Assembly: GCA_014155875.1 (NCBI GenBank)
Contig: JACEFZ010017682.1
Location: 27,043 to 91,042, forward strand
Length of the DNA stretch: 64,000 nt
Source of the DNA: Cepaea nemoralis
Taxonomy: Eukaryota > Mollusca > Gastropoda > Stylommatophora > Helicidae
Reading direction: 5' to 3'
In this document: piece by piece, positions 1,088 to 57,064 of the stretch
Layout of the letters: each line of letters opens with the position of its first letter
Numbering within the stretch: the first letter of the stretch is position 1
Notes under the pieces: generated by a model
Told to the model about the DNA's origin: nothing
What the model saw: the letters and a program-made list of their open reading frames with translations, nothing else
Database searches by the model: none
Position numbers and translations under genes: made by a program

Positions 1088-1717
1088 AACAATGGCACTT
1101 ATAAGTATCATCAATATAAGTACAATCATAATGGGGGACTTAAAAGTATCATCAATATAAGTACTATCATAATCGGGAACTTACAAGTTTCATCAATATA
1201 AGTACTATCATAATGGGAGACTTACAAGTATATCAATATAAGTAATATCACAATGGGGGACTTACAAGTATCTTCAATATAAGTAATATCATAATGGGGG
1301 ACTTACAAGTATCTTCAATATAAGTAATATCATAATGTGGGACTGACAAGTATCATCAATATACATACAATCATAATGGGGGACTGACAAGTATCATCAA
1401 TATAAGCACAATCATAATGATGGGACTTACAAGTATCATCAATATAAGTACTATCATAATCGGGAACTTACAAGTTTCATCAATATAAGTACTATCATAA
1501 TGGGGGACTTACAAGTATATCAATATAAGTAATATCACAATGGGGGACTTACAAGTATCTTCAATATAAGTAATATGATAATGGGGGACTTACAAGTATC
1601 TTCAATATAAGTAATATCATAATGGAGGACTTACAAGTATCATCAATATAAGTACTATCATAATGGGGGACTTACAAGTATCATCAATATAAGCAGAATC
1701 ACAACAAAGGGACTTAC
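1088..1717 (-). repeat. 41-bp minisatellite carrying copies of the ABCC exon 3 splice donor
   Basis: About 15 units of ~41 bp. Read on the minus strand each unit contains GATGATACTTGTAAGTCCC. The true end of the neighbouring exon reads GATGATACTCACACTT followed by GTAAGTCCC. The array starts exactly at the donor of that exon and repeats the exon tail plus the first intron bases, so it appears to have been seeded from the exon-intron junction. Each unit keeps a near-consensus 5' splice site in the sense orientation. Confidence 0.85.
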
Positions 1718-1846
1718 AAGTGTGAGTATCATCACTACTGGAGCAAACACATCAGCTGTGAGCAGACTATGAACCTCTGTGTGTGTGTGACCAACAACAT
1801 CGATGAAATCCAACGCTGACAGGACAACCATAAGTATAAGTAGAAT
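1718..1846 (-). CDS. ABCC/MRP-type ABC transporter, exon 3 (TMD0 segment)
   Basis: A 129-bp exon in phase 0 at both ends (43 residues), bounded by acceptor TTTTATCTTGCAG and donor GTAAGTC on the minus strand. It encodes a hydrophobic helix starting ILLILMVVLSALDFIDVV, then a short loop and a second hydrophobic stretch ending VVMILTL. It follows in frame from the upstream exon at 2323-2505, which matches the N-terminal domain of ABCC (MRP) transporters. In that family the equivalent exon encodes the second TMD0 helix. The assignment rests mainly on exon 2 and on phase; this segment alone is not diagnostic. The rest of the transporter lies beyond the left edge of the window. Confidence 0.6.
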
Positions 1847-2137
1847 CTGCAAGATAAAATATCCGTTTTCACTTTGTGGTCACATTAATGTCATTTGAAC
1901 AAACAAGTTCACATCCATTACAGCATGCTGCCTTATATTTACTCCCACCCAAGTCCAAGGCAACTGAAATCATGGAAAGCGGCAACACTTCTTAAATTTG
2001 TTGGTGAATATGTATTAAATTCATGCTAAAGATGAGCGGTTTCTATTCTGAGAGCTCTTACTCAACTCCTTTCTAAATGCATTTCTTCAGTTCTGACTTC
2101 CTGTTGTCCTGTGTATCCTCATTGTTGCGGTCATCTT

Positions 2138-2325
2138 CCAGGTCAAACACATGCCCAACACCTGTGACAATGTGTCCCGTCTAAACTATGAAATATGGGC
2201 AAGTGAAACACTGGAAACCCCAACCTTACCAGTAATCCTCCAGGTCACACACATCCCCAAGATGTGTGACAATATGTCCCGTCTAAACTATGAAATATGG
2301 GCAAGTGAAACCCCAACCTTACCAG
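2138..2325 (-). repeat. Tandem duplication (two ~95-bp copies) spanning the exon 2 splice donor
   Basis: Two adjacent copies share GTCCCGTCTAAACTATGAAA and the end CCCAACCTTACCAG on the plus strand. On the minus strand the true donor is AGGCTG then GTAAGGTTGGGG, and the duplicated copy ends ATTACTG then GTAAGGTTGGGG. A second potential donor about 93 bp inside the intron therefore follows from the duplication. Confidence 0.8.
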
Positions 2326-2505
2326 CCTCATCAGAACCAGCCAACTGAAGGTCTGCCCAGACACTGTCGTGGGCCAGCCAGTTAAGTACCATGTGTAGAA
2401 GGGGGCACTTAGCCACAGCCAGCCACACGGCACCCACACCAGCACTGTGGAGCGGAAACACTCGGTAAACTGTGGCCAGCTTCCATGCCAGGTGAGATCT
2501 TCGTC
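2323..2505 (-). CDS. ABCC/MRP-type ABC transporter, exon 2 (TMD0 start)
   Basis: A 183-bp exon, phase 0 to phase 0 (61 residues), with acceptor CTATTTCAAG and donor GTAAGG on the minus strand. The protein begins DEDLTWHGSWPQFTECFRST and continues VLVWVPCGWLWLSAPFY. This fits the conserved start of ABCC transporters: in human MRP1 the same place has a tryptophan-bearing segment, then FTKCFQNTVLVWVPC and an aromatic first helix. ABCC proteins export conjugated organic anions across the plasma membrane with ATP; TMD0 is the N-terminal five-helix extension of the long members. The exon joins the downstream exon at 1718-1846 in frame. Which ABCC member it is cannot be told from two exons. Confidence 0.8.
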
Positions 2506-2850: not shown

Positions 2851-3121
2851 CCAACTTTCAGTGACACATATCAGGCTGGTCTACACCAAACTTACCATCT
2901 TGATAGACGATAGTTTGTAAACTGGAGTTATACCTCTCCATAACACAAAGCCTGTACTTAATTTACAGACCATGTGTTGCCCATGTAGCATGATCCCTCT
3001 CTCGGCCTGCCTAGTTCACTCCAGAGGAATAGATGTTAGTTACTCTGGCAGTCAAAGGTATTTGCAACATCTCCATTGCTTATAAGCGCTTCCTAATTTG
3101 TTGATTAATGTTCCATTATTA

Positions 3122-4242
3122 GTTAGTTAGTTAGTTAGTCGACAGATCATCCTCGTTGCACATCGAACCATTCAGTCCATAAGTGCTCGGATCCCCTCCT
3201 CAGCAAATCCCGCAGCGTGTAGCGGCTAACGACGCCAGTTCTGTGTTGGTTTATCAATCTTCTTTGGCTTCCTGCATAGTGTTCTTGTTTGGCCAGCCCT
3301 CTTTTAATTTGCTGCTCCCGCAGTCTGGCCATTGTTGTAGATTCACAGTCATCACTTGGTTCTCGCAAAAGTCTCACTTCTCGTAGAGCATTCAGAATGT
3401 CAGCCTGGTCCATGGCGCGTCCGCCCTCCACAGTAGCCTCACCTGCGAGCTTGTCAGCCCGCTCATTTCCTTGTACTCCCGCATGACCTGGCACGAAGAT
3501 GAAACTAATCTTTGCCAGCCGAGACCGCTTCAGTGGCAGCAACCATTCTCTTCGGATCGACCCCTCCTCTATCCTCTTGATCATGTTCATTGAGTCGCTA
3601 AGGAAACAAGCCCTAGTGAATGTCTGTGTCTCGAGCCATGTTATTGCTTTACTTACTGCCATGACTTCCATGGTCAGGCTACTTGTGGTTTCAGTGAAAG
3701 CACCAGAGTCCTCCTTCACAATTCTCCCTCCGGCCCGAGCTATAAAGGCCCATGAGCTTCTCACATGTCGGACGACCGACCCATCTGTGTAGATGACCGC
3801 GTCACCGTCTAGCGAATTCTCGAAAATCAACGCTTGTACTTCAGCCTCCACAGCAGCCGGATTTTCTTGTCTGCATTTTCTATCTAGTTGGATGCAAACT
3901 GAAAAGGATGTGCAGAAGTCTGTTGGCACTTGCACCCACTCCTCGCCAGGTTCTAAGTCCTCAAGTGAACACACCTGTTGAAGAATGTCTTCGGCTTGAC
4001 CCATCCACGACCGTCCTCTTTTTAACCTGCTGCCCTTCACCTTCCTAATTTCACTATGCAGTGGATGTTGTGTGTTTGCGTTAATTCTGAGGTAGGCGCG
4101 TGCCCTGCAAACTTGTACTCTCTCTTCAATGGTTGGAAAATCAAGAAGGTAGCGCATCGCCCTGCATGCTGTATCTCTTGTACATCCAAGAATAATGTGC
4201 ATAGCTTCATTCTGTATCCTTTCCATCCTTTCTATCTGCTTA
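3122..4242 (-). mobile_element. 5'-truncated LINE with RNase H domain, flanked by a 16-bp target-site duplication
   Basis: The element is bounded by identical 16-bp direct repeats, TAATGTTCCATTATTA, at 3106-3121 and 4243-4258. Its 3' end on the minus strand is a short (CTAA)n tail at about 3122-3138. It keeps only the distal part of ORF2. The RNase H domain downstream of RT and the short tandem tail point to the I-like group of LINEs. It sits in the proposed first intron of the ABCC gene in the same orientation as that gene. Confidence 0.85.
3147..4242 (-). CDS. LINE ORF2 C-terminus: RT thumb remnant and RNase H
   Basis: An uninterrupted frame of ~365 residues inside the truncated LINE. It opens with the post-RT segment (ERMERIQNEAMHIILGCT) typical of LINE polymerases, then a linker. 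The RNase H domain follows with its acidic residues visible: YTDGSV (first Asp), LTMEVMAV (Glu), FLSDSMNMI (second Asp) and PGHAGVQGNERADKLAGEA (the His and last Asp). RNase H removes RNA from the cDNA hybrid during target-primed reverse transcription. An ATG frame extends ~12 codons further right into host flank; those codons lie beyond the target-site duplication and do not belong to the element. Without endonuclease or RT it cannot move alone. Confidence 0.9.
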
Positions 4243-4728
4243 TAATGTTCCATTATTAACCCAACACAGCAAAACATGTCCTATACAAGATTTCATCACT
4301 CTCTGTCTGACATTACATAGCGAAATACATGCTAATCAATCAATGTGTCAACAAGATTACCCAGAAAGGAGTGTCACAAAAGCCTTGAAGGTATCCAGAC
4401 ATCAGGGCTGTGTCAGTGTCCATCACTCCCCTCCACTTCTGGCTGGGGGAGGGTGAGGTGGAGCACAATTCAAATAATGAGTGGCAAATCAAAACACTTT
4501 ATGTCGCTCACTTTATGTATGCTTCCGATCAACTGGAAAGAAAGAATTTCTCTAGTGTAAATTTTCATTGACTGGACATTAAAATTGTGGAAGTTACTGG
4601 AAAATAAACAAATAAAACACTGTCAACATCCAGGCAATTTATCATCCCATGGCAGTTTCAGGAAGTTTGAATAAGACAATTAATCTTGCCATGGCACCCA
4701 AACAGTTAATCAAGTCTGAATATTCAAG

Positions 4729-5040
4729 ATTATAGTGGCCACGTGATCTTTAGGTTCCATTCATTCATCTCCAAATATTGAAGATTACAGCCTCCATGTG
4801 ATCTTTAGGTTCCTTTCATTCATCTCCAAATATTGAAGATTACAGCATCAATGTGATCTTTAGGTTCCATTCACTCATCTCCAAATGTTGAAGATTACAG
4901 CCTCCATGTGATCTTTAGGTTCCATTCATTCATCTTCAAATATTGAAAATGACAGTGAAAATGTGATCTTTAAGTTTCTTTCATTAATCTTTAGGTTCCT
5001 TTCATTCATCTTTAGGTTCCTTTCATTTATCTCCAAATAA
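4729..5040. repeat. ~60-bp imperfect tandem repeat (about 5 units)
   Basis: Units share GTGATCTTTAGGTTCC and CATTCATCTCCAAATATTGA with a 60-bp period from about 4729 to 4960; shortened units (TCTTTAGGTTCCTTTCATT) follow to 5040. The stretch 4243-4728 to its left shows no gene that I can support. Confidence 0.8.
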
Positions 5041-8994: not shown

Positions 8995-9372
8995 GTGCCG
9001 GGGTTGTCCGACAGGCAGCGCTGAATGGAAGATGCAACGACTGATTCACGGCAACTTGCGCCCATCTACACGGATGGCTCTGTGCTAAGAAGCAAACGAA
9101 GCGTCTGTGGGTTCAAAGCGAAGATTGATGGGCGATGTTTAATTCAGGAGATCCTGGCATATGATACCACAACATTTAGTCTATGATTGGAGGTGGAGGC
9201 GGTCACTGCTGTGTTTCGCTGGCTGAAGGACAAACAGCATACACATGTGATTGTAACGGACTCACGGAGCTTCTGAGTAGAGTTAGTACAGGCATGTTTC
9301 GTGCACAGTGACATGCTTCAATTAAACATCAAATCTAAGGAGCATCAGTTTAATCTTTTCCCCAGTACATGC
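8995..9372 (+). pseudogene. Decayed LINE RNase H segment
   Basis: The translation reads IYTDGSVLRSKRSVCGFKAK and continues with an Asp-containing TDSRSF, interrupted by stops (for example within the TFSL-LEVEAV and SRSF-VELV regions). YTDGS and the Glu of LEVEAV are RNase H catalytic motifs. The final motif begins at about 9369 (HAGVLGNEQANWL) and becomes the unit of the tandem array that follows. After the array the frame resumes at about 9840 as DKADVVGALRDHVYS, similar in position to DQADILNALREV of the LINE at 3147-4242. Confidence 0.75.
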
Positions 9373-9838
9373 TGGTGTACTGGGAAACGAGCAGGCAAAT
9401 TGGTTGGATCTGCACCCAGGGTGGGGTACTGGTGTACTGGGAAACGAGCAGGCAAATTGGCTGGATCTGCACCCAGTGTGGGGTACTGGTGAACTGGGAA
9501 ACGAGCAGGCAAATTGGTTGGATATGCACCCAGGGTGAGGTACTGGTGTACTGGGAAACAAGCAGGCAAATTGGTTGGATCTGCACCCAGTGTGGGGTAC
9601 TGGTGTACTGGGAAACGAGCAGGCAAATTGGTTGGATCTGCAGCCAGGGTGGGGTACTGGTGTACTGGGAAACGAGCAGGCAAATTGGTTTGATATGCAC
9701 CCAGGGTGAGGTACTGGTGTACTGGGAAACAAGCAGGCAAATATTGGTTGGATCTGCACCCAGTGTGGGGTACTGGTGTACTGGGAAACGAGCAGGCAAA
9801 TTGGTTGGATCTGCACCCAGTGTGGGGTACTGGTGTAC
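9373..9838 (+). repeat. 57-bp minisatellite amplified from an RNase H motif (8 units)
   Basis: Eight units of 57 bp (one 59). In the RNase H frame each unit encodes GVLGNEQANWLDLHPGWGT or a close variant, which is the conserved last motif of LINE RNase H (GHAGV-GNE-AD-LA). The period is exactly 19 codons, so all frames stay open. Units alternate between three spellings of the spacer (CAGGGTGGGG, CAGTGTGGGG, CAGGGTGAGG). A second copy is at 15228-15698. Confidence 0.9.
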
Positions 9839-9963
9839 GATAAGGCAGATGTAGTCGGGGCCCTATGAGATCATGTGTATAGTGTGGACGAACGGATAAT
9901 CATCGCGTTGAAAGAACCGTTGCAACAGGAAGTGACCAGGGGATATGGCCGACGCCTCAGTAC

Positions 9964-10040
9964 TTTCTTTCTTTCGTGTCATGTGTTTATTATGTACTAT
10001 TTGTAACCTCTATCGAATTAGCTTATTTGATCTTTAACAC
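9964..10040. repeat. Right arm of the 77-bp inverted repeat
   Basis: Reverse complement of 8844-8920 with one mismatch. It begins TTTCTTTCTTTCGTGTCATG. It is duplicated at about 15827-15898 in the second block, where no left arm exists. The stretch 10041-10540 holds nothing recognisable. Confidence 0.85.
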
Positions 10041-10545
10041 CTATTTTCAATTTCAGCACTTTATTCTTATTTCAATGGGACAAAATGATAAACCTTGATG
10101 TGTGAAATGTTTTCCTTGCTTTAGTTGCTGTAAAACTGTTGAGGCTATTGAAATAGCATTAGAAATAAATGCGCAGGTATTGATATACACGCATAAATGT
10201 AAATGAAAGAATTAGAGACTAGGGGACACACCTGACAGCATAAAAATGGAACGTTATAGGCACAGTGGAATTGGAACGTGTCCTCTCCAAATTATGACAG
10301 CACCTCGCTGAACGAAAAAGTGCATTTTGACGATTGACCAACTAGACACTACAAAAGAAAAACATCTTGAACTCACAGTTGTAGAAAGTTGATAGAATTC
10401 CCACCCTGCCAGTGTTATAGCACTGTCAGTCTAAGAAATGAGGTTAATGCGCACTGAAAAATCACCTAGTGCTTGTTTTAATTGTACAGACCATGGTACA
10501 AGACATTACTAATTAGCACAGATGTGGGTGTCACATGTTATAGAT

Positions 10546-10763
10546 CATCATCATCATCATCATCATGTGCCATGCCGGTAGACGTGGGCGGTCATGTTTT
10601 GCCATCTAACTCGATCACCAGAGTCGTGGATCAGCTCAATGTTCTTGTCTCGACCATACCACGTGGCCAAGCCATCCAGGTATTTACTTCTTTGCCCTCC
10701 CCTTGTTCTCTTCCCCTCGATGTTGCCAGTTGTCACCAAGTTCTCTCTTATTTTATACAACAA
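10546..10763 (-). mobile_element. RTE-like LINE 3' fragment with (ATG)n tail
   Basis: On the minus strand the frame reads KIEGKRTRGG-like sequence (NIEGKRTRGGQRSKYLDGLA) then NIELIHDSGDRVRWQNMTAH, ending at a (ATG)n run (plus strand CATCATCATCATCATCATCA at 10546). This is the far C-terminus of an APE-type LINE ORF2; RTE-like elements end in such short tandem tails. A related copy lies on the plus strand at 21836-22085. Duplicated at about 16405-16617. Confidence 0.75.
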
Positions 10764-10778
10764 ACACGTTGAACTTTA

Positions 10779-11165
10779 TACGAGGGGTGTTCAGAAAGTA
10801 ATGCGCCACGTCGTTTTTCCAAGGAGCTGTTTATTCAAAAAGCATGACATTTATTCACAAAATACATGGATATGTCATGTAAACATCAGTATTATTCAAC
10901 ATAATCCCCATTAATTTGTACGGCATTATGTCAGCGCGAAACAAGTGTATTTATCCTTGCCCGTACCAGATTTTGTCTTGATCATGTAGCCATTTCTTCG
11001 CTGCATGAATCACCCCCTTCATCTTCAAACCTCGTCCCATGGAGTGCATCTTTAAGTGGACCAAAATAGATTAAAATCAGAGAGAGCCAAATCGGGACTA
11101 CAGGGTGAATGGGGTAGTAGTCCGACCCAATTTGGTGATTGCTTCCGTGTTGCCAGACTTGTGTG
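10779..11165 (-). pseudogene. Mariner-family transposase C-terminal remnant with one terminal repeat
   Basis: The left end has the TA-flanked terminal-repeat-like CGAGGGGTGTTCAGAAAGTA typical of mariner elements. On the minus strand the translation includes SLILIYFGPLKDALHGTRFE and, in another frame, INTLVSR then NAVQINGDYVE, which resemble the FGPLK..LRG.RF and W..C....GDYVE ends of mariner transposases. Stops and frame breaks make it dead, and the other end is missing. The motif ACAACAAACAC..TTG occurs on both sides (10757 and repeated at 11178-11245). Confidence 0.7.
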
Positions 11166-11499
11166 AGGGCGCTCGTACAACAAACACATTGGACGTTACT
11201 CAACAAACATATTGAACGTTGTACAACAAACACAGTGAACGTGGCCAGTTGGTGCACTGAGGTAAACTTCTCATAAATGTGATTTATGAGAGGAGACACT
11301 TCTAGAGATATATGTGCGATCTATGGCATGAGACTGAGACACTTATAAAGATATCTGTGTGATGAGACAGTTATCTTTGACCACAAGACAATACCAAAAC
11401 CTGCCCCTCGATGCTTTATTAATCTCTTTTATTAATCTAAATTATCCCGAAACTGTCAAGTCATATACTGCCTATGCCTATAGTAATTAGTATGTAACC

Positions 11500-11715
11500 T
11501 CCACCCCTGGCCTAGGGGTTAGAAACTTTCTCCGTAATCCCGTATATTCACGCGAGGAACGTAACATGCGCGAGAATCGGTAGCGGTTCTCGCCGCGTTG
11601 GTAACTTACGGAGTATGTGAGCCGGTCGCTCAGAAAACTATGGCAAACTACTGAGCGTAATCTTGCCAAGAAATCAACAATCATCTGAAAGATGCTGAGC
11701 CTGAGGAATAAGGCG
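11500..11715 (+). mobile_element. tRNA-derived SINE (family A)
   Basis: Head CCTGGCCTAGGGGTTAGAAA resembles an A box; the body has GAGCCGGTCGCTCAGAAA and GGCAAACTACTGAGCGTAAT, and the end is GCTGAAAGATGCTGAGCC-like. Same family as 22680-22921. Duplicated at 17357-17575. Confidence 0.75.
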
Positions 11716-11754
11716 TTTGGCTAGTGGGGTCGCCGCGAACTGTGCAGGTTAGGA

Positions 11755-11868
11755 TTTTCTTTTTGCCCCCGACAGAAAAAGAAAAATCCCACACACTACC
11801 GAGGATTCGAGCGGGGTGTTCCAAAGGGAGACCCCGGCGTTCTTAGCCACTCGGCCAGTCGCTCAATA
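11755..11868 (-). mobile_element. tRNA-derived SINE (family C) just upstream of SMG9
   Basis: On the minus strand: CTGGCCGAGTGGCTAAGAAC (A box) and GCTCGAATCCTCGG (B box), spaced as in a Leu/Ser-type tRNA, followed by a non-tRNA body with TTTTTCTTTTTCTGTCGGGG. I do not call it a functional tRNA because no clear acceptor stem pairs. It ends about 155 bp before the SMG9 start codon. Duplicated at about 17608-17726. Confidence 0.6.
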
Positions 11869-12024
11869 ACCAAATCAATCAATTTATAAATCTCTGGGAC
11901 GGAAGAGTGGTTAGCGGAAGTTGATGTTTTTGGTGGCTGGACGTGAGCTGTGTTCATGCTGGCCTTGTTTCTTCTCTCTGGTGAACTGGAATTTGTTGCT
12001 GGTTTGTGAGTTGTGTTTACAAGT

Positions 12025-13598
12025 ATGGCAGATCCGTATGACAGACATCGGCGACGACGCCGGCGCGATCGGTTGGAGTACGAGCGACACAGCGAGGACG
12101 TATCACCAGCAGCTACCGTCAACAAACCGCCGGTGACAATTCTGGGCCTGGCTAAACCGATCAGAAGTATTTGCCATAACAAGCACGACGATGAGTGGCT
12201 CGACAACAGGTACCGGCGACCATGTCACTAATATAGGAGCAGATACTGAGGTTTCCGACAATGTTGCTCATCAACTTTCAGAGCTGTCGGTTGATGCTGT
12301 ACCAGGTGTGGATAAATCATCCATGGCGTTGGAGAGTAATAATAAAACTCGTTTGACTTCTATGAAATCCACAGAGCTGGACTCTACGACAGAGATAACA
12401 CGCTCACAGCTAGAGGACAGTTGCCATTCTACAGATGATAGTTCCACCTCCACCGGCACAGCCAGGAAAACCTCTACAGCTAGCGCTGTAGGAATATCAT
12501 CAGTGGTGTCATCGACCAAAGCGCCCAAACTCAGTTAAAGTTAGCCCCTCCATTTGAAAAACAACGACAGTGAAAATGATAGATGGTAACTTTCAGTGGA
12601 CAGAGGTTGGACATGACCTGATGTTAGATCACACAGATCTGTTGGTGGTGGGGTGGTTGGTCTGCAGGGCTGCGGCAAGTCCACCTTGTTGTCACTTCTA
12701 GCGGGGAACACCAATCAAGACGCTTACAGAAATTATGTCTTCTTTCCTCAAACAAAGGAAGCAAAGAGGATTCTTTGTATCAGACATCGGGAGTGGATAT
12801 GTTTATCACCACAGAAAGAATGATATTGCTGGACACTCAGCCTCTCCTCAGTGTTGCTATGATGGATGGCATGTTGAGGTACGAGAGAAAAATTCCGTCC
12901 GAATATTCATCTCTGTATAACTTTATTGAGGTACAGTCAGTGCAGCTTTTGACTTTCATGTTGTCTGTTTGTAACGTCATCCTAGTTGCTGATGATTGGT
13001 TTACAGATATTAATTTACTAAAACTTATTCAAGATGCAGAAATGCTAAAACCTTCCACACAAAAACCCCGTCATCGTCCACTGACAACTCATCCATGAGA
13101 GAGGATGGGCTGGATTTCTATCCGACTGTCATCTTTGTCCACAACAAAGCTTCTCGTGATGACTTCAGCCCGGAGGCTTACTTCTCCATGCAGCAGGTGC
13201 TCCTCAGGATGTTCTCCTCCTCCAAGCTGAAGATTGCCAGTGGCATTACCATGACCAGCACCCTTCTAGGTGAGCCCATCATTCAGCCACTACCTGGCAC
13301 GGAGGAAACAGTGGCCAGAGATGTCAATCTACTGCTGATCCCCACCATGGAGTTCTACAAGTCAGAGCCCGATTTCCTGGAGACCACTCTTCCAGAGTAC
13401 AGAGGCTATCCCAGCTTTAGCACCATTTTGTCGTTCTTTCGAGCCCAGATCTTGGCCTCGCCTCGTTCTCCTGTGACCCCCACAGTTCTCTCGGAGAAGA
13501 ACTGGTATCATTTCACCGCCAGAATGTGGGATTCCGTGAAGAAGTCTAGCCTCATTGCTGAATATAATCGACTGTTGGCGTCGACTTCCTCGGTGTAA
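12025..13598 (+). pseudogene. SMG9: SMG9 copy 1, intronless and frameshifted
   Basis: Same gene as 17880-19456. SMG9 partners SMG8 to hold the SMG1 kinase, which phosphorylates UPF1 in nonsense-mediated mRNA decay. The start (MADPYDRHRRRRRRDRLEYE) and the C-terminus (LPEYRGYPSFSTILSFFRAQ and EKNWYHFTARMWDSVKKSS) are clear. Relative to copy 2 the frame is broken at about 12168 (one extra base), 12490, 12560, 12651, 12755 (each one base short in a short run) and 13064 (two extra bases in A and C runs). In contrast, at the two places near the N-terminus where copy 2 is broken, copy 1 reads through. The errors are thus complementary and mostly in homopolymers, which suggests poor consensus or one collapsed or artefactual copy; real pseudogenisation is the other option. 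Confidence 0.85.
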
Positions 13599-13789
13599 AG
13601 TGCTCAAAGTAGTCACCAGTATGAACAATAATTAATTTGATGCTGATTGATTGTATTGAACTTGTTGTGAATCGCTGCCTGTTATTTGTCATATATTTGC
13701 TGTAAGTTATGTTTGTGATGTCCAAGATGCTGACTAGCTGATAGTACCATGGAAAAACATTGAAGGACTCTTGTAGATACCCAAGTGTA

Positions 13790-16617: not shown

Positions 16618-16634
16618 ACACGTTGAACTTTATA

Positions 16635-44968: not shown

Positions 44969-45012
44969 AACAATACATAAAGATGGAGTTAAACACAAGC
45001 GGGTAGGAACAG

Positions 45013-46630
45013 GTTGCTAATGGCACTGTTTACATGAAGGTTGCTAATGGCACTGTTTACATGAAGGTTGCTAATGGCACTGTTTACATGAAGGTTGCTA
45101 ATGGCACTGTTTAGATAAAGGTTGCTAATGGCACTGTTTACATGAAGGTTGCTAATGGCACTGTTTACATGAAGGTTGCTAATGGCACTGTTTACATAAA
45201 GGTTGCTAATGGCACTGTTTACATAAAGGTTGCTAATGGCACTGTTTACATAAAGGTTGCTAATGGCACTGTTTACATGAAGGTTGCTAATGGCACTGTT
45301 TACATGAAGGTTGCTAATGGCACTGTTTACATGAAGGTTGCTAATGGCACTGTTTAGATAAAGGTTGCTAATGGCACTGTTTACATGAAGGTTGCTAATG
45401 GCACTGTTTACATGAAGGTTGCTAATGGCACTGTTTACATGAAGGTTGCTAATGGCACTGTTTAGATAAAGGTTGCTAATGGCACTGTTTACATGAAGGT
45501 TGCTAATGGCACTGTTTAGATAAAGGTTGCTAATGGCACTGTTTAGATAAAGGTTGCTAATGGCACTGTTTAGATAAAGGTTGCTAATGGCACTGTTTAC
45601 ATGAAGGTTGCTAATGGCACTGTTTAGATAAAGGTTGCTAATGGCACTGTTTACATGAAGGTTGCTAATGGCACTGTTTAGATAAAGGTTGCTAATGGCA
45701 CTGTTTAGATAAAGGTTGCTAATGGCACTGTTTAGATAAAGGTTGCTAATGGCACTGTTTAGATAAAGGTTGCTAATGGCACTGTTTAGATAAAGGTTGC
45801 TAATGGCACTGTTTAGATAAAGGTTGCTAATGGCACTGTTTAGATAAAGGTTGCTAATGGCACTGTTTAGATAAAGGTTGCTAATGGCACTGTTTAGATA
45901 AAGGTTGCTAATGGCACTGTTTAGATAAAGGTTGCTAATGGCACTGTTTAGATAAAGGTTGCTAATGGCACTGTTTAGATAAAGGTTGCTAATGGCACTG
46001 TTTAGATAAAGGTTGCTAATGGCACTGTTTAGATAAAGGTTGCTAATGGCACTGTTTAGATAAAGGTTGCTAATGGCACTGTTTAGATAAAGGTTGCTAA
46101 TGGCACTGTTTAGATAAAGGTTGCTAATGGCACTGTTTAGATAAAGGTTGCTAATGGCACTGTTTAGATAAAGGTTGCTAATGGCACTGTTTAGATAAAG
46201 GTTGCTAATGGCACTGTTTAGATAAAGGTTGCTAATGGCACTGTTTAGATAAAGGTTGCTAATGGCACTGTTTAGATAAAGGTTGCTAATGGCACTGTTT
46301 AGATAAAGGTTGCTAATGGCACTGTTTAGATAAAGGTTGCTAATGGCACTGTTTAGATAAAGGTTGCTAATGGCACTGTTTAGATAAAGGTTGCTAATGG
46401 CACTGTTTAGATAAAGGTTGCTAATGGCACTGTTTAGATAAAGGTTGCTAATGGCACTGTTTAGATAAAGGTTGCTAATGGCACTGTTTAGATAAAGGTT
46501 GCTAATGGCACTGTTTAGATAAAGGTTGCTAATGGCACTGTTTAGATAAAGGTTGCTAATGGCACTGTTTAGATAAAGGTTGCTAATGGCACTGTTTAGA
46601 TAAAGGTTGCTAATGGCACTGTTGAGATAA
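45013..46630 (-). repeat. 27-bp minisatellite next to the TPR exon 2 donor (about 60 units)
   Basis: Units GGTTGCTAATGGCACTGTTT plus A(G/C)AT(A/G)AA. It starts at intron position +9 after exon 2. On the minus strand each unit has TTTATCTAAACAGTGCC, a pyrimidine/AG motif that loosely resembles an acceptor; the donor itself is not repeated. ACATGAA variants are confined to the far end (45030-45660) and AGATAAA units fill the exon-proximal part. The 27-bp period makes a 589-codon stop-free minus frame that I do not accept as coding. Confidence 0.95.
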
Positions 46631-46640
46631 AGAAACTTAC

Positions 46641-46788
46641 ATATTTCAGCTTGGTGAGGGTATTGTTGGGTGCCATCTCCGCAGCCTGGGCCAGGGTGAA
46701 GACGGCGTCCCGGTGTCTGCTTGTCCTGGAGTAGACTGACCCTAACAAGGTCAGGCACTCGCTGCAGTTCGTGTTGAGACCGAGAGCT
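46641..46788 (-). CDS. TPR-repeat protein, exon 2 of those seen
   Basis: 148 bp; starts with one base completing a codon from exon 1 and ends in phase 0. Acceptor CGATCTGACAG, donor GTAAGTTTC. It encodes KALGLNTNCSECLTLLGSVY, SRTSRHRDAVFTLAQAAEMA and PNNTLTKLKY: one full TPR hairpin (helix A TLLGSVY, helix B AVFTLAQAAEMAPN). The split Lys codon with exon 1 (AA plus A) confirms the junction. Confidence 0.88.
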
Positions 46789-47847: not shown

Positions 47848-47983
47848 TTGTCTAAATGTGTTTCTGCCTCTCGGAGCTGCCCGTGTCTGTAGTAGATCCT
47901 CGCTGAGTTCAGGAGAGCCATGCTGTCCCCAGGTTCGAGTCTCAGTGCTGCCTCGTATTCTCTGAGTGCACCGCCAGCTTGTC
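47848..47983 (-). CDS. TPR-repeat protein, first exon seen
   Basis: 136 bp; begins with the last two bases of a codon and ends with the first two of a Lys codon. Acceptor GCTTTCTGTTCCTAG, donor GTGAGCTC. It encodes QAGGALREYEAALRLEPGDS, MALLNSARIYYRHGQLREAE and THLDK: the G-AL-EYEAALRLEPG and ALLNSARIYYRHGQLREAE spacing is a canonical TPR. Upstream exons were not found in the window: the next ~9 kb to the right are an LTR retrotransposon, and beyond it only arrays. The protein is therefore N-terminally incomplete here. Confidence 0.87.
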
Positions 47984-48072
47984 CTAGGAACAGAAAGCAA
48001 CGAAATAAAGATAGACTTTCATATACAAACACTCCCCACTGGGCGTGTCCTGGGAACAGAAAGCAACGACAT
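47984..48072 (-). repeat. ~66-bp minisatellite copying the TPR exon 1 acceptor (left part)
   Basis: On the minus strand the true acceptor is TTGCTTTCTGTTCCTAGGAC and each repeat unit carries TTGCTTTCTGTTCCCAGGAC, followed by ACGCCCAGTGGGGCGTGTTT. The array begins at the real acceptor and is interrupted after ~1.3 units by the LTR retrotransposon; it resumes at 56805-56995. Confidence 0.9.
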
Positions 48073-48748
48073 TATCAAGATGCTGGATAGGCATCAATAG
48101 AAGTAGGATAGGTATAGATAGAATTAGGACAGGACAGAGGAAAGTAAAGGACCGAGACAGGACATAATAAGGACCTTTACAATAGAATAGATAGAGAGAG
48201 ACAGTATAGGGAGATAGAACTCCAAACGAGTGTTAGGACCAGACCTAGACAGGACACACATGTGTCATATCTAGGACATGACTAGGACATACCGGGATTA
48301 ACTCCCGACATAGGACAGAGTATAGTAATCACGGGGACTACCCGTAAACAGACTGAACTCTAGTATAGCGGTAGGCTACGAGGACTGGACCACCAAACTA
48401 CGTGACAAGTAATCCCGCACGCTGTGCGGCTGACCGCACGAGATCGGGGTACGAGGAGCTGGACGAAGCTGTGAATTCAGACAGACCGGGCCGGACAGTT
48501 CGAGCGACAGGACCTTCTGTGTTTACCCTCGCTAGTTGTGTAGTTTAGAGAGGACATAGTATATGCAGCTAATATTGAGAATGTATTTGACTGTTGAATG
48601 CCAGTGGTGTATGCTCGGAAGACGAGCCCTGTAATATGTATATAGATTAAAGTGCGATTCTTTTCATCCATTCACACAAAGACGTGTTTGTAATTATGAG
48701 GTGTGAATGAAGGAACCAGTGTGCTTGTATGAATTCAGGTTGTTGACA
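48073..48748 (+). repeat. 5' LTR of the LTR retrotransposon
   Basis: 676 bp, starts TATCAAGATG (the right LTR has TGTCAAGATG, so the canonical TG is altered here) and ends GTTGTTGACA. ATTAAAG near 48647 could serve as polyadenylation signal. It differs from the 3' LTR by about a dozen substitutions and one 2-bp indel counted by eye. Confidence 0.93.
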
Positions 48749-48760
48749 GGCAGTTCGATA

Positions 48761-48776
48761 TGGTGTCAGAAAGTGG
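48761..48776 (+). promoter_or_regulatory. Primer binding site, probably tRNA-Leu
   Basis: TGGTGTCAGAAAGTGG lies 12 bases after the 5' LTR. It starts with TGG (complement of CCA) and is complementary, apart from one extra A, to the 3' end of metazoan tRNA-Leu (CCCACTTCTGACACCA). Similar stretches recur at about 48855 (ATGGTGTCAGAAGTT) and 49012 (ATTGTCAGAAAGTG). Confidence 0.7.
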
Positions 48777-49589
48777 TTTTTGAATCTACGCGTGATTGTA
48801 TTTGCGAAATGTATCAGACAGTGGTCTATTAATCTACATAAGAATGAATTTCGATATGGTGTCAGAAGTTCTTATGAACCAATGACAAGTTTGAAAGTGT
48901 ACGAAAGAAGACAGTGGTCTTGAAATCTTGCTAGATCAAGCGTGCAAAATGAGGTCAGACAGTGCTCGTTGAATTTACGCAAGATTGTGTGCGCGCTAGA
49001 TTGAGTATCGAAATATTGTCAGAAAGTGCGCTATAAACTTATGCGAGAAAGTGTAATGAAGTGATGTTAGCAGTGCTTATGCTCTAGTGTGAGAGATATC
49101 AATATTCACTAATATTGTGTAAATTGTGAAATAACGAAGATTAACATGTTTCACAGCGACGTTTCAGTTGAGGTCAAAGAAAGGTGAAGACACGACGACA
49201 TTTGACACGACAAACGACAGAAAACTTTAATACGTTATTTCGCATTTCAGCATCCCGTCGGAGCGAATTACTACACATAAATTGTTAAGTGTGATATCAT
49301 CTTGTGCGTGTGTTATATTTTCGGAAAATTAATTTTTGCTGCTCTATGTAACATAATGCAGAGCAGATGTATTTAGAACACCAGTCAGCCTGAAATTGAG
49401 AAGAACTCCCCATAGGCCCAAGAAAGTAACAAGTTTTTCAGATAAGTATACATATAGTTTTGATAGGCAAAGATTAGATAAGCATCTTAAATTCAAATGC
49501 TGTAAATAATTAATATTATTATATAGACATTTAATTCTCTGTGATTGTATATTTAATTGTATTGATTGTGTGTACAAGTACTATCAAAG

Positions 49590-50702
49590 ATGCCAACATT
49601 AGGAGAGTGTATACAGGCAGGTAAAGACCTTGGATATACTGGTGATAAGTTAGAGAAGTGGGCAAATGATAAATTTAAATAATTTAAAAATGCTGAAAGA
49701 GATGAACGAGCACAAGAACGCCAGCATCAGAAAGACCTTGCTGAACTGGCTGAGGCCACACAATTAAAGGAATTAGAAATTAAAGAAAAACAACTTGAAC
49801 TAGAGGCACAAACACAGGTGAAATTAAAGGAGTTAGAGATTGAATCTCACGTACAGATTGCCACCAACAAATTAAAGAATAAAGAAGAGGAGAATAAGTT
49901 CAAGAAGTACAAAGGGTTGGTCAAACCCTTTTGCCAAGGCGATTCCATATCTGCATAGACTGAAAATGTGGAATTCCAGCTTAAATTCCAGGAAGTGCCA
50001 CGAGAACATTGTGCGATGGTCTATATGAAGAACCTCTCGGGGGAGCCTTTAAAAGTCATAGAATCTATTCCCCAAGAGCTCAGAAGTAATTATGATTATA
50101 TTAAACAACGCATTATGCAACATTTTTTGCTAGACGCCCCATGGTACCAAATTCAGTATTCTAAATTAAAACATAAACCAAATGAAACGTTCATTGACTA
50201 TGTTTCTAACGTACAAAGTGTATTTTGCAAATGGCTAAACGCTGCAAAGGTGGACAAAAGCTTTGATAAACTCAAAAACTTGATGATAATGGACAAAATC
50301 ATCTAAACTGTACCTTCTCCCTTTGCAAAGTTTCTGCAGCAAACTGACGTTGAGTCATTATAACAGTTGGAAAAACGGGGGTCCGCATATTTTTCTTCGA
50401 ATCGAGACATTTTAAAGTCATCTGTAGAAGAATCTGAAATTGTACCATTTGCTAAAAGTAAACCTCAGAAACCATTTCAAATGAGGGATAAACCTAAAGC
50501 TAAGCCACCTCAATGCCCTTACTGTCATTTGTTTCATGAACAGTTTTCGATGTGTGATAAAAACCCAGGATATGCGTCTCACTTAGAGATGATGATAAAG
50601 AAGCAAGAGAGCAAGAGAAACACGTATAACGTGCAGTTAAATGATACTTTTGTCGTTCTTACGGACATTATAGCTCTAAGTGTGTTGGACGTCAGAGACT
50701 GA
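49590..50702 (+). pseudogene. gag: gag of the LTR retrotransposon, interrupted by four in-frame stops
   Basis: One frame from ATG 49590 (MPTLGECIQAGKDLGYTGDK) carries gag with stops at 49680, 49956, 50304 and 50361 but no frameshift until ~50640. It has a charged coiled-coil-like region (AELAEATQLKELEIKEKQLE) and then the capsid-like part (LSGEPLKVIESIPQELRSNY, HKPNETFIDYVSNVQSVF). A Cys/His cluster CPYCHLFHEQFSMC follows near 50510. A second, CCHC-type knuckle (CRSYGHYSSKC, ~50653-50690) is in the next frame, with a stop where its first Cys should be. Gag forms the particle that packages the RNA. Confidence 0.8.
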
Positions 50703-50755
50703 GAGCCAGTAATGCTGTACTTGTCGATACTTCGTCTGGGAGTGAAAGTGAGGAA

Positions 50756-51232
50756 TTGTTACCATACAACGATAATATTGTAGCTGCTATTGATGTTCTA
50801 AACTTTGATAGTTGTGTTATGTGCCATCAATTTCATGAAGACGGAGTGCTAAAGTGCGGACACGCAGTTCCGTTTTCCAGTGAAAACGCCAATGCAGCCA
50901 TTGCCTCCAGAGGCAAATTATCGTTCCATAACGGAGTGGTTAATAACAAGCCTTGTCAGTGTTTACTAGATAGCGGGAGTACCCTCATTGGCCTTAGGAA
51001 GGAATTGGCCAAGCCAGAAAATTATACGGGCGGCTTTGTAAAGTGCCGTACCTTCTCGGGTAACATAGAAAAATACCCATTAGCAAAAGCCCGTATAGAC
51101 ACTCCATTTCCTGTCTGGCACATTTACGTGCGCCATCCTATACAACCCGTATACGGATTTGATAATTGGTTGCCTACCAGAGTTAAAAACTTGTACCGCG
51201 AAAGAAATATTAGCCTGGAGAGAAACCCATAA
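50756..51232 (+). pseudogene. pol: Aspartic protease region of pol
   Basis: Frame 2 carries a Cys-rich lead (CVMCHQFHEDGVLKCGH) then the retropepsin active-site motif QCLLDSGSTLIGL, with DSG at 50969-50977. It continues the frame of the second zinc knuckle, one frame away from most of gag; a programmed shift or a simple mutation near 50640 are both possible. The frame ends at a stop at 51230 before integrase. The protease would cut the Gag-Pol precursor. Confidence 0.75.
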
Positions 51233-51239
51233 GGCTAAT

Positions 51240-52570
51240 GCGGTAACCAGGTCAGAAACGCAGAAACAAAAAGATGACCTGCAAGAAGAAATGCTACAAC
51301 TGATAACACCAAGTGGTACCCTAAACAACACCACGAAGCAAAATTTCATAAAGGCGCAACTCGCCGATCCATCTATCTCACCCTATTTCAGATTTGTTGG
51401 CGAGAAACCAAAAATGACCAAAAACGCGTCATGGTATTTTAAACTACATAATGGTATTCTAACTAGAAATTATAATAGAGATAACCATGAAATTCAGCAA
51501 ACAGTACTACCAGTCGAACATCGACAAACAGTCCTACGAATCGCACACGAATCGCCGTTTGCTGGACATCAAGGCTATGATAAAACCAGAGCCAGAATTT
51601 TAGCTCATTTTTACTGGCCGAAATTTTGTAAAGACATTAAAAACTTTTGTCGTTCATGTACCATATTCAGCAATTAGTACGAAAGGGTAAGCATGTTACG
51701 GCTGAGGTCCAACCAACAACATTGGCCTCTAGACCATTTGAATGTGTAGCAGTATATATTGTTGGACCTTTGAACCATGTATCCAACAAAGGAAACAGAT
51801 TCATCCTAACTCTGGTGGATTTTTGTTCGAGATGGGTAGAGGTGGTAGCGCTGAAATACATAAGTTCCAAAGATGTGGTTAACGTATTTTTACATCTGTT
51901 TTCCCGTTTTGGATTCCCCCAGTACCATCTTATCAGATCGGGGAACCCAATTCATATCAGCTGCTACGCAAGTTCTTACAAAATTATTAGGAATAAAGCA
52001 GTGTTTCACAAGCCCCTACCACGCGGCGGCCAATGGTATTGTAGAGAAATAAACGGAGATTTAAAACATATGTTGGCCAAGGTAACAGCAGAAAACCCAG
52101 CAGAATGGGATACACTGTTACCAACAGTGCTGTTCACCTACCGAGAAATTCCGCATTCAAGTACGGGTTTCTCACCATTCGAACTAGTATACGGGGCTAA
52201 CCCACGAGGACCCCTAAGCATTTACCACCAGCTGGTAACCAACACCTCAGAGACCATAACACCGGTATCACCATATGAGGTAGTTACTGAAACACGCGAC
52301 AAAATTATGAGAGCGTGTACCATCGCAAAATCATCTTTGGAATCGAAAAGGACAGATCTACCGCCATTATGCCAACAAAGGTGCCAAGATCTTACACCTC
52401 GAACCAGACCAAAAAGTATTACTCCTGTTACCCGATAAAAGAAATTTACTTTTAACATCATGGCAAGGGCCATTCAGAGTGGTACGAAAGATATCAGATG
52501 TTGATTATGAAATATCGATGAAAAACAAACTCAAGATATTCCATATCAACATGCTGAAAACTTATTACTC
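51240..52570 (+). pseudogene. pol: Integrase region of pol (zinc-binding, core, GPY/F), broken
   Basis: The HHCC zinc-binding domain is in frame at 51540-51665 (LRIAHESPFAGHQGYDKTRA, HFYWPKFCKDIKNFCRSC). The core follows after a frame change: FECVAVYIVGPL at 51740-51772, where the first catalytic Asp is Tyr (codon 51755-51757). The second Asp (SDRGTQFISA, 51936) and the Glu (GIVEK, 52044) are present but in another frame, entered at a C run near 51915 and left near 52048. The C-terminal GPY/F module is at about 52440-52570 (SWQGPFRVVRKISDVDYEIS). Integrase inserts the cDNA. It lies upstream of RT, which is the notable point. Confidence 0.87.
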
Positions 52571-52586
52571 AAGACAGGAACACCAG

Positions 52587-52676
52587 ACAGAAGACGAACA
52601 CAATACAACTACACCAAGTCATCAGACAAGAGATGAACACAATACAACTACACCAAGTCATCAGACAAGAGATTAA
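52587..52676 (+). repeat. 39-bp direct repeat inside pol (about 2.3 units)
   Basis: GAACACAATACAACTACACC and AGTCATCAGACAAGAGAT repeat just after the GPY/F module, in the linker before RT. A looser third copy follows to about 52710. Confidence 0.85.
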
Positions 52677-52749
52677 CACAATGCAACTACACCTTGCAAT
52701 TAGACAGAAAATGTACTCAGCACAACCACAATCTTGAATCAAACTTACA

Positions 52750-54295
52750 ATGAATGACGACATGGAAATACCAGTTCCAACAGTAGACATAACTGCAACA
52801 ATTGACAGCATACACATAGAACCAACACTTACAGACGAACAGAAACAACAGACAATAGCATTAGTGACAGAATACAGACAGATCTTCTCAGACATCCCAG
52901 GTAGGACAGATAGAATAGAGCACTCCATTCTTCTCTCGGACTATACTCCGATAAAATGTAGACCATATTCCATCCCTTTGAATTTTAGGGTAAAAACTCG
53001 ATAAAGAAATTCTTGATTTAGAAGCGAGAGGAATAATTCAAAAGTCTCAGTCGGATTATTCATTTCCTATAGTTCTGGTAAAAAAGAAGGACTCCATGAA
53101 TCGCCTCTGCGTCGATTATAGGAAATTAAATAGTATCACAAAAATAGACGCTAGAACCTATTCCATCCTGTGAAGATCTACTCTTAAATATGGCAACATC
53201 TACCATCTTCTCAAAACTTGACCTAACTAAAGGTTATTGGCAAGTTCCTATGAATAAACATTCTATCCATCTTACTGCATTTTCAACACCTTTAGGTCTT
53301 ATGAATGGCGATTTCTTCCTTTCGGCCTACGCAATGTGCCTGCTACTTTTTTCCATCTAACTAGAGATATTTTACATGGAGTAACAGACAATCAATCATA
53401 TATAGACGACATATGCATACATACAACAGACTGGACAAAACACTTGCAAAAACTAAGACAAGTGTTCGAAAGGATAAAGGTATTTGGACTTACAGTGAAG
53501 CCAACCAAAGTGGAACTGGGCTTGGAGAAAATCGACTTCCTATGCCATACGATATCGAAAGGCCATTTAGAAACTGATAGCAAAATTGTGACAAAAATTC
53601 TAAACCTCACTATGCCAGTTACAAAAAAGCAAGTGAGAAGGTTACTTGGTCTGGTAAACTACTATAACAAATTCATCCCCAATTTAGCAGAAATTACCAG
53701 TGTTTTTTCTAATCTATTGAAGTCGAATGTCAAAATTAGTGTGAAAGATGCTAATCTAATTAATGCTATGTCAAAACTTAAGCATTGTTTTAGCAACGTC
53801 CCAATCCTTCGTTTGCCTAATCCCTTCTTACAATATTTTCTTAGGACTGATGCCAGCACAGTATCCATAGTAGGCGTCCTGGGCCAGAAATATAACGACG
53901 TCCTGCATCCTGTAATGTATGTTAGTCGGAAGATTACTCCAACTGAAGCCAAATATGGAGTCTCTGAATTGGAGGCGTTGGCGATAGTGTACTGTGTCCA
54001 TAAACTGCACCGATTTTTGGCAGGGACACATTTTTTCATCGAGACTGACAACTCCCCGCTCACTGTCATGGAGACAGGGGTCCACAAGAACAATAGAATA
54101 TATAGATGGTCCCTGATCCTCCAAAATTACTCGTTTTTGGTCAGGCACATCAGCGGCAATTGTAATAAACTAGCTGACATGCTAAGTAGACCTACGAACT
54201 TTGAGGTACCTGAACTACCAAAGGAAGACTACATAACTCCATCATCGTCTCTAACATTGGTACCAGAGTGTGAACAGACAGATGTGCCATTATAA
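52750..54295 (+). pseudogene. pol: Reverse transcriptase and RNase H region of pol
   Basis: RT opens with LTDEQKQQTIALVTEYRQIF and HSILLSDYTPIKCRPYSIPL, is shifted near 53000, and continues RGIIQKSQSDYSFPIVLVKK, RLCVDYRKLNSITKIDA; breaks lie between 53160 and 53330. From 53336 a 319-codon frame has ATFFHLTRDILHG, the catalytic YIDD at 53399-53410, TVKPTKVELGLEKIDFLCHT, the connection LLGLVNYYNKFIPN, and RNase H with FLRTDASTVS (Asp), YGVSELEALAIV (Glu), FFIETDNSPL (Asp) and NCNKLADMLSRP. These are Ty3/gypsy-type motifs. No integrase follows. The frame ends at 54293-54295. Confidence 0.9.
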
Positions 54296-56130
54296 AGAGA
54301 ACTGTCCACACGTATGGCTGACTATTTACGTCGAGTTAACATTATATTCGATACTAGTGTTTATACATTATGAATACACTCCAGGAAAATCGCGTGGAAC
54401 ATTGAACTATGATATGAACTTTAGATATTCGTAAAGGAAAGGATGCGACATCTTCAACGTGCCTGGATTAGATTAATTAGTTAGTGTAAGGAATATAAAT
54501 GTATCTATTAATATGTATATAAATATGATATGAATGTCAATGTATGTAATTGTTATGTACAATATATATATTTTTATTGCAGTTGCATATAATACTATAG
54601 TTTGTAGATGTAGTTAGTTTGTAGAAACAGAACTTTAGATTTTGTAGATTAATTACACCTTTCCCAATCCCCAATTAAATACACGTATAATTAGTCTTAA
54701 AACTAAGTACTTTAGCTTCATCACATCCCATCAGTCTTCTGATAGTCTATCATCTCACAAATTAATTTAATTAGAACAATCTATTTAGTTAACACAGTTT
54801 AAGTTACAAATATAACATCCATAAAGTTATTCTTGTACCATCTAGAATTATAAGTAGATTAAGGGAACCAACACATTTCACCCCATTTCATTTAATTATT
54901 CAAATTACCTTCCTTTAGTCAATAAATCTCAGTACACAAAATTATAGGTTAATTATAGATTAGTTAGTAGACTTAGAATATGGGCAAACAACCCACTCAA
55001 CTTATACATATTGTAAATATATATACAGTGCCAATATACCGCACTATTAATCGGCTCAAAGGTCGTCTAAAACTGAGCCAAAACTATTATACATTTTTCT
55101 TTTCATTATTTTATTTTATTTTATTTTTATTTTCCCAATACTTAATTCTCTTGTGTCATTGTAAAGTCACAATAATATTGCAATGACATATCATAACTTT
55201 TTAACATGCGAGAACAAATGTGTGAGAGACAGACGAGAGCAAGAATAGAGTGAATGAATTAAAAACAAGGCGAGTGAACAGCCGGAGAATTTTTTCCGCG
55301 CACAAGAGTTTTTATAATTTGTCTGCGTCTTAAATGTAACACATGTGCTTCTGTGATTTTTATGTGTAGTTGCCACTAATGCATTACAAGTATAGTCACA
55401 TTTTTAAGTCTCCTAGGTCGGCAAGGCAGTCACAAATTATGCTAACGCACTGATTCGTGACGGCATAAACCAACCTACGATGCTTGAAAAACTTCATTCA
55501 GTAAATTATAAACATACATCAATGTTTCTGATTTAAACATACATTAAATTTAACTAAACACGCAAACAACCAGATATACTTACAGATAAAAATGCAGACA
55601 GCAATTAAACGGAAAGGGGTATAACTCATGAACAGGGGACATCACAGACTTACAAAAAACTCTGACTTTGCATTGAAAGATTTAAACACAAACGGAAGTT
55701 AGAAAGGTGAACATTAGCACGCACACAACATGTAATAGAGTTGGAGAAACATTACATGGGGGCATGAATTTATATTCATGTATTGTGCCGTAAAACGTAC
55801 AATCTGTACGGGGTGTCGGTTAATCAACATTTTGAGAAGCAGGCCGTAATGACAATGGCTTCGGGTCGTTACAGCTCTCATATATGTAATGTAGATGAGT
55901 ATATACTCTAGCCAACAGTACAGTTGTGCAACACTGATTACTAAGCCAGTGGATAAATACGACGATGTGACATCAGACGGTCAGAAGTTAGTTATTATAC
56001 CCAGGACATGAGCACTTAACCCTACCACCACTTGACAAAATTAGACCCAACTAATTTTTAAAGGTTACGAAAGATTGTGCCACACTTATGAGCTAAAGCT
56101 GGTGACGCAATACGGAGGGGGACGAGAGCG
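54296..56130 (+). other. Long non-coding 3' region of the LTR retrotransposon
   Basis: 1.8 kb between the pol stop and the 3' LTR. It is AT-rich and has no open frame with a recognisable domain and no envelope-like signal or membrane pattern. A purine-rich tract (GGAGGGGGACGAGAGCG, about 56114-56130) directly before the 3' LTR fits a polypurine tract priming plus-strand synthesis. Confidence 0.7.
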
Positions 56131-56804
56131 TGTCAAGATGCTGGATAGGCATCAATAGAAGTAGGATAGGTATAGATAGAATTAGGACAGGACAGAGGAA
56201 AGTAAAGGACCGAGACAGGACATAATAAGGACCTTTACAATAGAATAGATAGAGAGAGACAGTATAGGGAGATAGAACTCCAAACGAGTGTTAGGACCAG
56301 ACCTAGACAGGACACACATGTGTCATAGTTAGGACATGACTAGGACATACCGGGATTAACTCCCGACATAGGACAGAGTATAGTAATCACGGGGACTACC
56401 CGTAAACAGACTGAACTCTAGTATAGCGGTAGGCTACGAGGACTGGACCACCAAACTACGTGACAAGTAATCCCGCACGCTGTGCGGCTGACCGCACGAG
56501 ATCGGGGTACGAGGAGCTGGACGAAGCTGTGAATTCAGACAGACCGGGACGGACAGTGAGAGCGACAGGATCTTCTGTGTTTACCCTCGCCAGTTGTGTA
56601 GTTTAGAGAGGACATAGTATGTGTAGCTAATATTGAGAATGTATTTGAGTGTTGAATGCCAGTGGTGTATGCTCGGAAGACGAGCCCTGTAATATGTATA
56701 TATTAAAGTGCGATTCTTTTCATCCATTCACACAAAGACGTGTTTGTAATTATGAGGTGTCAATGAAGGAACCAGTGTGCTTGTATGAATTCAGGTTGTT
56801 GACA
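56131..56804 (+). repeat. 3' LTR of the LTR retrotransposon
   Basis: 674 bp, TGTCAAGATG to GTTGTTGACA, with TG and CA termini. It is followed by the target-site duplication GACAT and then the interrupted ~66-bp host repeat. Confidence 0.93.
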
Positions 56805-56995
56805 GACATAAAGATAGACTTTCATATAAAAACACGCCCCACTGGGCGTGTCCTGGGAACAGAAAGCAACGATATAAAGATAGACTTTCATATACAAACA
56901 CGCCCCACTGGGCGTGTCCTGGGAACAGAAAGCAACGATATAAAGATAGACTTTCATATACAAACACACCCCACTGGGTGTGTCCTAACATGGCA
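56805..56995 (-). repeat. ~66-bp minisatellite copying the TPR exon 1 acceptor (right part)
   Basis: Nearly three more units of the array at 47984-48072, with GGGAACAGAAAGCAACGATA on the plus strand. It includes the palindromic-looking CGCCCCACTGGGCG. A plus frame over it reaches 57098 but has no domain. Confidence 0.9.
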
Positions 56996-57064
56996 GTGTG
57001 TGATGGACAAACCTCCGTGTGTTCATCAACCCCAACTGCTGCTTCTTATTCTTGGTATCGCGGA

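Follow-up and report, generated by a model that had tools for sequence, protein, structure and literature searches.

The 64,000-nucleotide window analysed here (positions 27043-91042 of contig C16396 of the land snail Cepaea nemoralis) holds parts of an ABCC gene and of a TPR-protein gene, in which several exons adjoin tandem arrays whose repeated unit takes in the splice site of the exon itself. An earlier note on this DNA had claimed such a unit at seven exon ends. For six of the seven splice junctions we found that the junction does sit inside a tandemly repeated unit, with the GT or AG included, and at the seventh, the acceptor of ABCC exon 2, the array lies about 10 bp away. We regard these arrays as very probably minisatellites of the type called mirages, produced by ordinary tandem duplication in introns that are very rich in arrays. 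On balance, the pattern in the window is close to that of random duplication in array-filled introns, thinned toward the exon. The note's author knew of no named system of this kind, but one exists in the mirages of amphioxus, which had already been described (PMC3087553).

Exon borders in the window were set by continuous reading frame and GT/AG signals in the genomic sequence. The TPR-protein gene lies on the minus strand and has six exons in the window, which form one open frame through the stop codon: T1 (47848-47983, the first TPR exon found in the window), T2 (46641-46788), T3 (44188-44319), T4 (36937-37062), T5 (36028-36105) and the last exon, T6 (26185-26313), which carries the stop codon. 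The first five exons were searched against Pfam and gave TPR matches. The two ABCC exons, also on the minus strand, are exon 2 (2323-2505), which encodes an MRP1-like N-terminal part, and exon 3 (1718-1846), which continues the frame of exon 2. Residues 3-42 of the joined piece match MRP1/ABCC1 in PDB (best E 9.6e-11). A homologue search with the TPR piece found nothing, and neither did one with the ABCC piece, for which the query was two bases short and had one extra residue at the join.

The arrays are given here on the minus strand, like the genes, with a slash at the exon-intron border. At the donor of ABCC exon 3, a 41-bp unit that includes CACACTT/GTAAGT is present in 14.6 copies (1097-1717). 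At the donor of ABCC exon 2 there is a duplication of two copies only (2138-2325), which contains little exon sequence and includes CTG/GTAAGG. The array beside the acceptor of ABCC exon 2 has an 88-bp unit (2516-2839) and begins about 10 bp within the intron, so that the acceptor is outside; its copies carry TTTCTGTTCTC and not the acceptor CTATTTCAAG/GAC. In the TPR gene, the acceptor of T5 is included in a 38-bp unit (36106-36624; TATTGCAG at the acceptor and TATTGTAG in most copies), and the donor of T4 in a 20-bp unit with CTCCAG/GTGCGT (36806-36936). The donor array of T3 has a 22-bp unit that includes CGGAG/GTAAGC and reaches about 75 copies in all, split by a non-LTR (long terminal repeat) retrotransposon into a proximal part (43990-44187) and a distal part (38444-39858). 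The retrotransposon occupies 39873-43979 of the minus strand, with approximate ends, and has endonuclease and reverse transcriptase open reading frames (Pfam PF03372 and PF00078). Similarly, the acceptor of T1 is included in a 66-bp unit whose proximal part (47984-48072) and distal part (56805-56995) lie on the two sides of an LTR retrotransposon on the plus strand (48073-56804; Pfam Integrase_H2C2 and RT_RNaseH). This element is flanked by a 5-bp direct repeat, GACAT (48068-48072 and 56805-56809), the ends and the repeat having been read by eye. Along its plus strand the integrase zinc-binding match (51099-51674) precedes the reverse transcriptase match (53258-54292), an order also found in Gmr1-type elements.

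The exonic part of the copied sequence is 7 to 21 nt at the five of six window junctions that could be measured without gaps; that of the ABCC exon 3 donor was measured on a second contig, C17817, and the ABCC exon 2 donor has no ungapped copy. With a score of 12 of 24 as the threshold, no duplication was found at the donors of T1, T2 and T5, at the acceptors of T2, T3, T4 and T6, or at the acceptors of ABCC exons 2 and 3 (scored on C17817). Arrays do begin near the donor of T2 and the acceptor of T3, with the sites themselves outside. The one at the T2 donor, with a 27-bp unit, extends over 45011-46632 from about 9 bp inside intron 2. TPR introns 2 to 4 are largely made of arrays and a transposon.

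We then compared splice junctions with other intron DNA, using 24-bp segments (12 exonic and 12 intronic nucleotides) at the junctions and control segments of the flanking introns. The assembly searched consists of 26,579 contigs with 3,472,891,610 bases. For ABCC, also at exons 2 and 3, the scoring used C17817 and not the window, which places a donor array at exon 8 of C16396 outside the counts. Most of ABCC exons 2 to 17 were located on C17817 by tblastn with a human ABCC1 sequence, and frame and splice signals were used to set the borders and to find the exons missed by tblastn; exon 5 was not found on this contig, and exon 7 there has an indel. Kinesin and myosin exons formed a further sample, for which 57 of 191 listed matches were examined (the 30 best-scoring of 122 for kinesin and 27 of 69 for myosin, the myosin loci being hand-picked and mostly without stops). 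Four exons that nearly duplicated others (L030, two on L054, and L061) were removed, which left 53 exons; 6 of their 106 junctions had splice scores under 0 and were discarded, so that 100 remained. A first comparison, in which every array copy was counted, set 10 of 40 ABCC and TPR junctions against 54% of 6030 controls. It was rejected since it over-weights long arrays, and the controls were therefore re-weighted by 1/copy number. The comparison was run at thresholds of 12, 14 and 16, and also with a low-complexity filter.

Outside the window, 9 of 125 junctions are duplicated compared to 14.6 expected (per flank, each array counted once; the probability of so few is 0.03). In the window the values are 6 of 15 and 4.0 (P=0.12, with the four ABCC junctions scored on C17817), and for the TPR gene alone 4 of 11 and 3.8. 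The earlier note had called for a genome-wide enrichment test; in our sample of 140 junctions, 15 are duplicated and 18.6 were expected. Stricter thresholds shift the result further toward fewer duplicated junctions than expected. The distance profile of the kinesin and myosin genes, with 99 segments at each position, has 3 duplicated at -36, 5 at 0, 18 at +24, 30 at +72 and 29 at +150. Duplication thus climbs from exon through junction to intron, with a plateau from about +70 bp and without a peak at the junction. At distances of at least 150 bp from the junction, segments with a nearby copy make up 21-29% in the kinesin and myosin genes and 47-55% in the ABCC and TPR genes. The proposal that the arrays are seeded at splice junctions by slippage or replication is therefore not borne out by this sample.

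Cases of the same kind occur elsewhere in the assembly. A tandem copy within 400 bp is present for 10 of the 40 ABCC and TPR junctions (29 on C17817 and 11 in the window), and none of the 40 scores between 12 and 8. Both boundary types are affected, with 5 of 19 donors and 5 of 21 acceptors duplicated. On C17817, tandem copies are found at the ABCC exon 9 acceptor, exon 10 donor, exon 12 acceptor and exon 13 acceptor, that is, at 4 of the 25 ABCC junctions outside the window. In the kinesin and myosin sample, 5 of 100 junctions are duplicated at a threshold of 12 (6 at a threshold of 10), four of them in kinesin and one in myosin genes. Two kinesin cases, one acceptor and one donor, are clear, their copies containing 37 and 35 exonic nt, and L041, with 12 of 24, is the weakest of the five and doubtful. 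An ungapped copy is found for 13 of the 15 duplicated junctions, and in these the exonic part of the unit is 6-43 nt. By eye, the repeats on C17817 (L006-L012) begin just inside the intron, with the site excluded, at the donors of ABCC exons 13, 15 and 16, and repeats that exclude the splice site also precede the exon 14 acceptor.

The claim that the copies keep GT or AG holds in so far as these dinucleotides are present in many copies; they are kept only about as well as the other columns of the unit. In the four arrays analysed (ABCC exon 3 and TPR exons 3, 4 and 5), the GT/AG columns are equalled or surpassed in conservation by 30 to 83% of the other columns, and no sign of maintenance of the inner sites was seen. 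The lower value belongs to the array of TPR exon 3, where 30% of the other columns equal or exceed the donor columns. In the arrays of ABCC exon 3, TPR exon 5 and TPR exon 4, the splice columns are within the range of the others. The offsets of the copies are not multiples of 3 in 9 of 13 measured cases. The note had also proposed that arrays are tolerated if the splice site is preserved. This agrees with the exon-to-intron gradient and with the outermost copy being intact, but not with the inner GT and AG, which are not specially kept; any selection would therefore act on the outermost site.

Among the best candidates scored, the ABCC exon 2 query has two places in the assembly, the window and C17817. 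The latter has ABCC and SMG9 in the same order as C16396, and the longer matches outside arrays are about 89-99% identical. C17817 is probably a residual haplotype, i.e., the other haplotype of C16396, because the assembly paper reports regions that were assembled separately, ascribes them to heterozygosity and gives a mean heterozygosity of 1.42% (PMC8022989). The two contigs differ in their arrays. C16396 carries 14.6 copies in the ABCC exon 3 donor array and four in the exon 2 acceptor array; the corresponding counts on C17817 are 17.3 and one. At the ABCC exon 8 donor, a 53-bp unit, 43 nt of which are exonic, is present in four copies on C16396 and in one on C17817; no microhomology was seen at this duplication by eye. 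The copy count of a kinesin acceptor array also differs between two near-identical contigs, L026 and L030. Provided that both contigs are correct, arrays across junctions arise and alter within the time span of polymorphism. The arrays are probably recent and polymorphic.

Several observations weigh against the reading of the arrays as ordinary duplications that strike junctions no more often than other intron DNA. With the low-complexity filter, 9 of 124 junctions outside the window are duplicated compared to 12.4 expected (P 0.13), and the deficit is no longer significant. ABCC exons 2 and 3 give 2 of 4 compared to 0.2 expected (P=0.013), a surplus confined to the lowest threshold, with 0 of 4 at both 14 and 16. 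For the ABCC and TPR genes together, 10 of 40 compares with 7.1 expected when the control fraction is the mean of introns (0.176) and with 4.2 when all control segments are pooled (0.105), pooling being a procedure that lowers the expectation. Their distance profile has 0.25 at the junctions and 0.07-0.17 at interior positions. An excess of 1.4- to 2.4-fold at the ABCC/TPR locus is thus possible. Furthermore, the kinesin and myosin borders come from a simple score of base frequencies. In the array of TPR exon 3, G and T are each found in 93% of about 75 copies compared to a column mean of 87%, and in that of TPR exon 4 the GT is kept at 0.83-0.86 compared to 0.79. Finally, the divergence between C16396 and C17817 reaches about 10% in places, above the mean heterozygosity of the species (1.42%), so the two contigs could be very diverged haplotypes or duplicates.

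If splice junctions were hot spots at which tandem duplication is seeded, for instance by stalled forks or at the edges of R-loops, one could account for the surplus in the window (6 of 15 compared to 4.0), for ABCC exons 2 and 3 and for the pooled ABCC/TPR comparison, and examples from amphioxus and human exist. The numbers outside the window (9 of 125 compared to 14.6), a distance profile without a junction peak and the TPR gene alone, at 4 of 11 compared to 3.8, all point the other way, and we consider hot spots improbable. Still less probable is that the copied sites are functional, as a selected bank of alternative or decoy donors and acceptors. Good sites are indeed present in many copies, such as the roughly 93% of some 75 copies at TPR exon 3 that keep G and T each. 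However, the GT/AG columns are within the range of others in all four arrays, copy offsets are not multiples of 3 in 9 of 13 cases, and C17817 does without arrays at the ABCC exon 8 donor and exon 2 acceptor.

It is about as hard to credit that tandem duplication of exon sequence containing AGGT gave rise to the introns as such, with the arrays as remains. Intron gain of this sort has been put forward for globins of amphioxus (PMC3087553) and, in human, for repeats at exon-intron boundaries (PMC2812944). TPR introns 2 to 4, mostly arrays and a transposon, would agree with such an origin, but at ABCC exon 8 the intron persists on the contig that lacks the array. Intron phases in ABCC probably agree with those of human ABCC1. 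An assembly artefact of noisy long reads is similarly very unlikely as the source of the arrays. The published assembly was built on continuous long reads (PMC8022989), and frame-breaking indels are found in SMG9 and in ABCC exon 7. On the other hand, the copies within units have diverged, the ABCC exon 3 donor array is present on both contigs, and transposons lie inside two of the arrays. The exact copy numbers of arrays may nevertheless be wrong.

The interpretation as mirages can be compared with what is known from amphioxus. The term denotes minisatellite-like repeats spanning exon-intron boundaries in Adh3 and in the globins BflGb6 and BflGb9 (PMC3087553, citing Canestro and others 2002). 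According to that paper, both boundaries are affected, two haplotypes have six and three units, RT-PCR (reverse-transcription polymerase chain reaction) suggested regular splicing, and the mechanism is called unclear; somatic instability is reported for Adh3, and concerted evolution of units within a cluster is a further feature of mirages. The snail arrays have these features of mirages: a boundary-spanning unit that contains exon sequence, at both donors and acceptors, with many AG and GT copies, and a difference in copy number, which is one between haplotypes provided that C16396 and C17817 are haplotypes. Unlike the amphioxus cases as described there, those of the snail are in a mollusc and in several unrelated genes, are known here from one genome assembly, and have units mostly of 20 to about 100 bp compared to 10-72 bp in Adh3 and 150-160 bp in the globins. 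Human repeats in segmental duplications are likewise variable minisatellites at exon-intron boundaries, with units of about 30 bp on average, and differ in that they are linked with novel introns and alternative transcripts of genes that were duplicated recently (PMC2812944). Plasmodiophora and earthworm metallothionein introns were considered as further literature parallels and led to nothing. A human minisatellite with multiple splice donors reportedly belongs to the gene 6-16/IFI6 and involves the use of upstream donors; there, too, the unit provides splice donors.

In the mechanism we propose for the snail mirages, a tandem duplication would happen to span an exon-intron border, so that the unit takes up the exon end and the splice site; subsequent slippage or unequal exchange may then enlarge the unit into an array on the intron side. 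The rate at which junctions are struck would be close to that of positions elsewhere in the intron, or slightly lower. The copy next to the exon body would still present the original exon end and splice site, and copies that include the junction would survive because this outermost copy keeps the original site. Splicing would presumably take place there, the inner copies would be intron sequence and drift, and selection would remove the remaining cases.

Some other features of the window were recorded. The SMG9 sequence, on the plus strand, has frame shifts only and no visible intron. A block of about 5.86 kb with SMG9 occurs twice (about 9372-15100 and 15233-20950). The first SMG9 copy carries frame-breaking indels, C17817 has a single SMG9, and part of the neighbouring 57-bp array matches C17817 in the opposite orientation. 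The doubled block is either a heterozygous duplication or an assembly artefact. TPR intron 5 contains, at 26414-35190, a directly repeated block of about 3.66 kb that consists of a 28-bp array and a G-rich stretch, the 28-bp array being present three times. A 29-bp array and degenerate AC-rich repeats extend over 57399-64000 up to the contig end. In ABCC intron 1, an element with RNase H (3119-4243) has a 98.9% match on C17817 that sits elsewhere, at 3850-4974; measured between flanking matches, the C17817 intron is shorter by about 1.4 kb.

As far as the literature searched shows, these arrays extend mirages from amphioxus to a mollusc, a new phylum; no molluscan case appeared in the titles or abstract openings searched, a coverage with most subscription journals outside it. 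Mirages occur in several unrelated genes and differ between two contigs of one assembly, and the question of junction seeding receives a first quantitative answer, which is negative in this sample. It is possible, although we hold it only tentatively, that land-snail mirages form a standing, pervasive and polymorphic class, in which several percent of junctions lie in arrays (5 of 100 in the kinesin and myosin genes and 4 of 25 in ABCC outside the window) and alleles differ by extra apparent splice sites, up to dozens. In a genome of 3.5 Gb, such a class might be a continual source of material from which introns grow and alternative splicing arises, and the arrays offer a natural test of how the spliceosome chooses among many near-identical sites.

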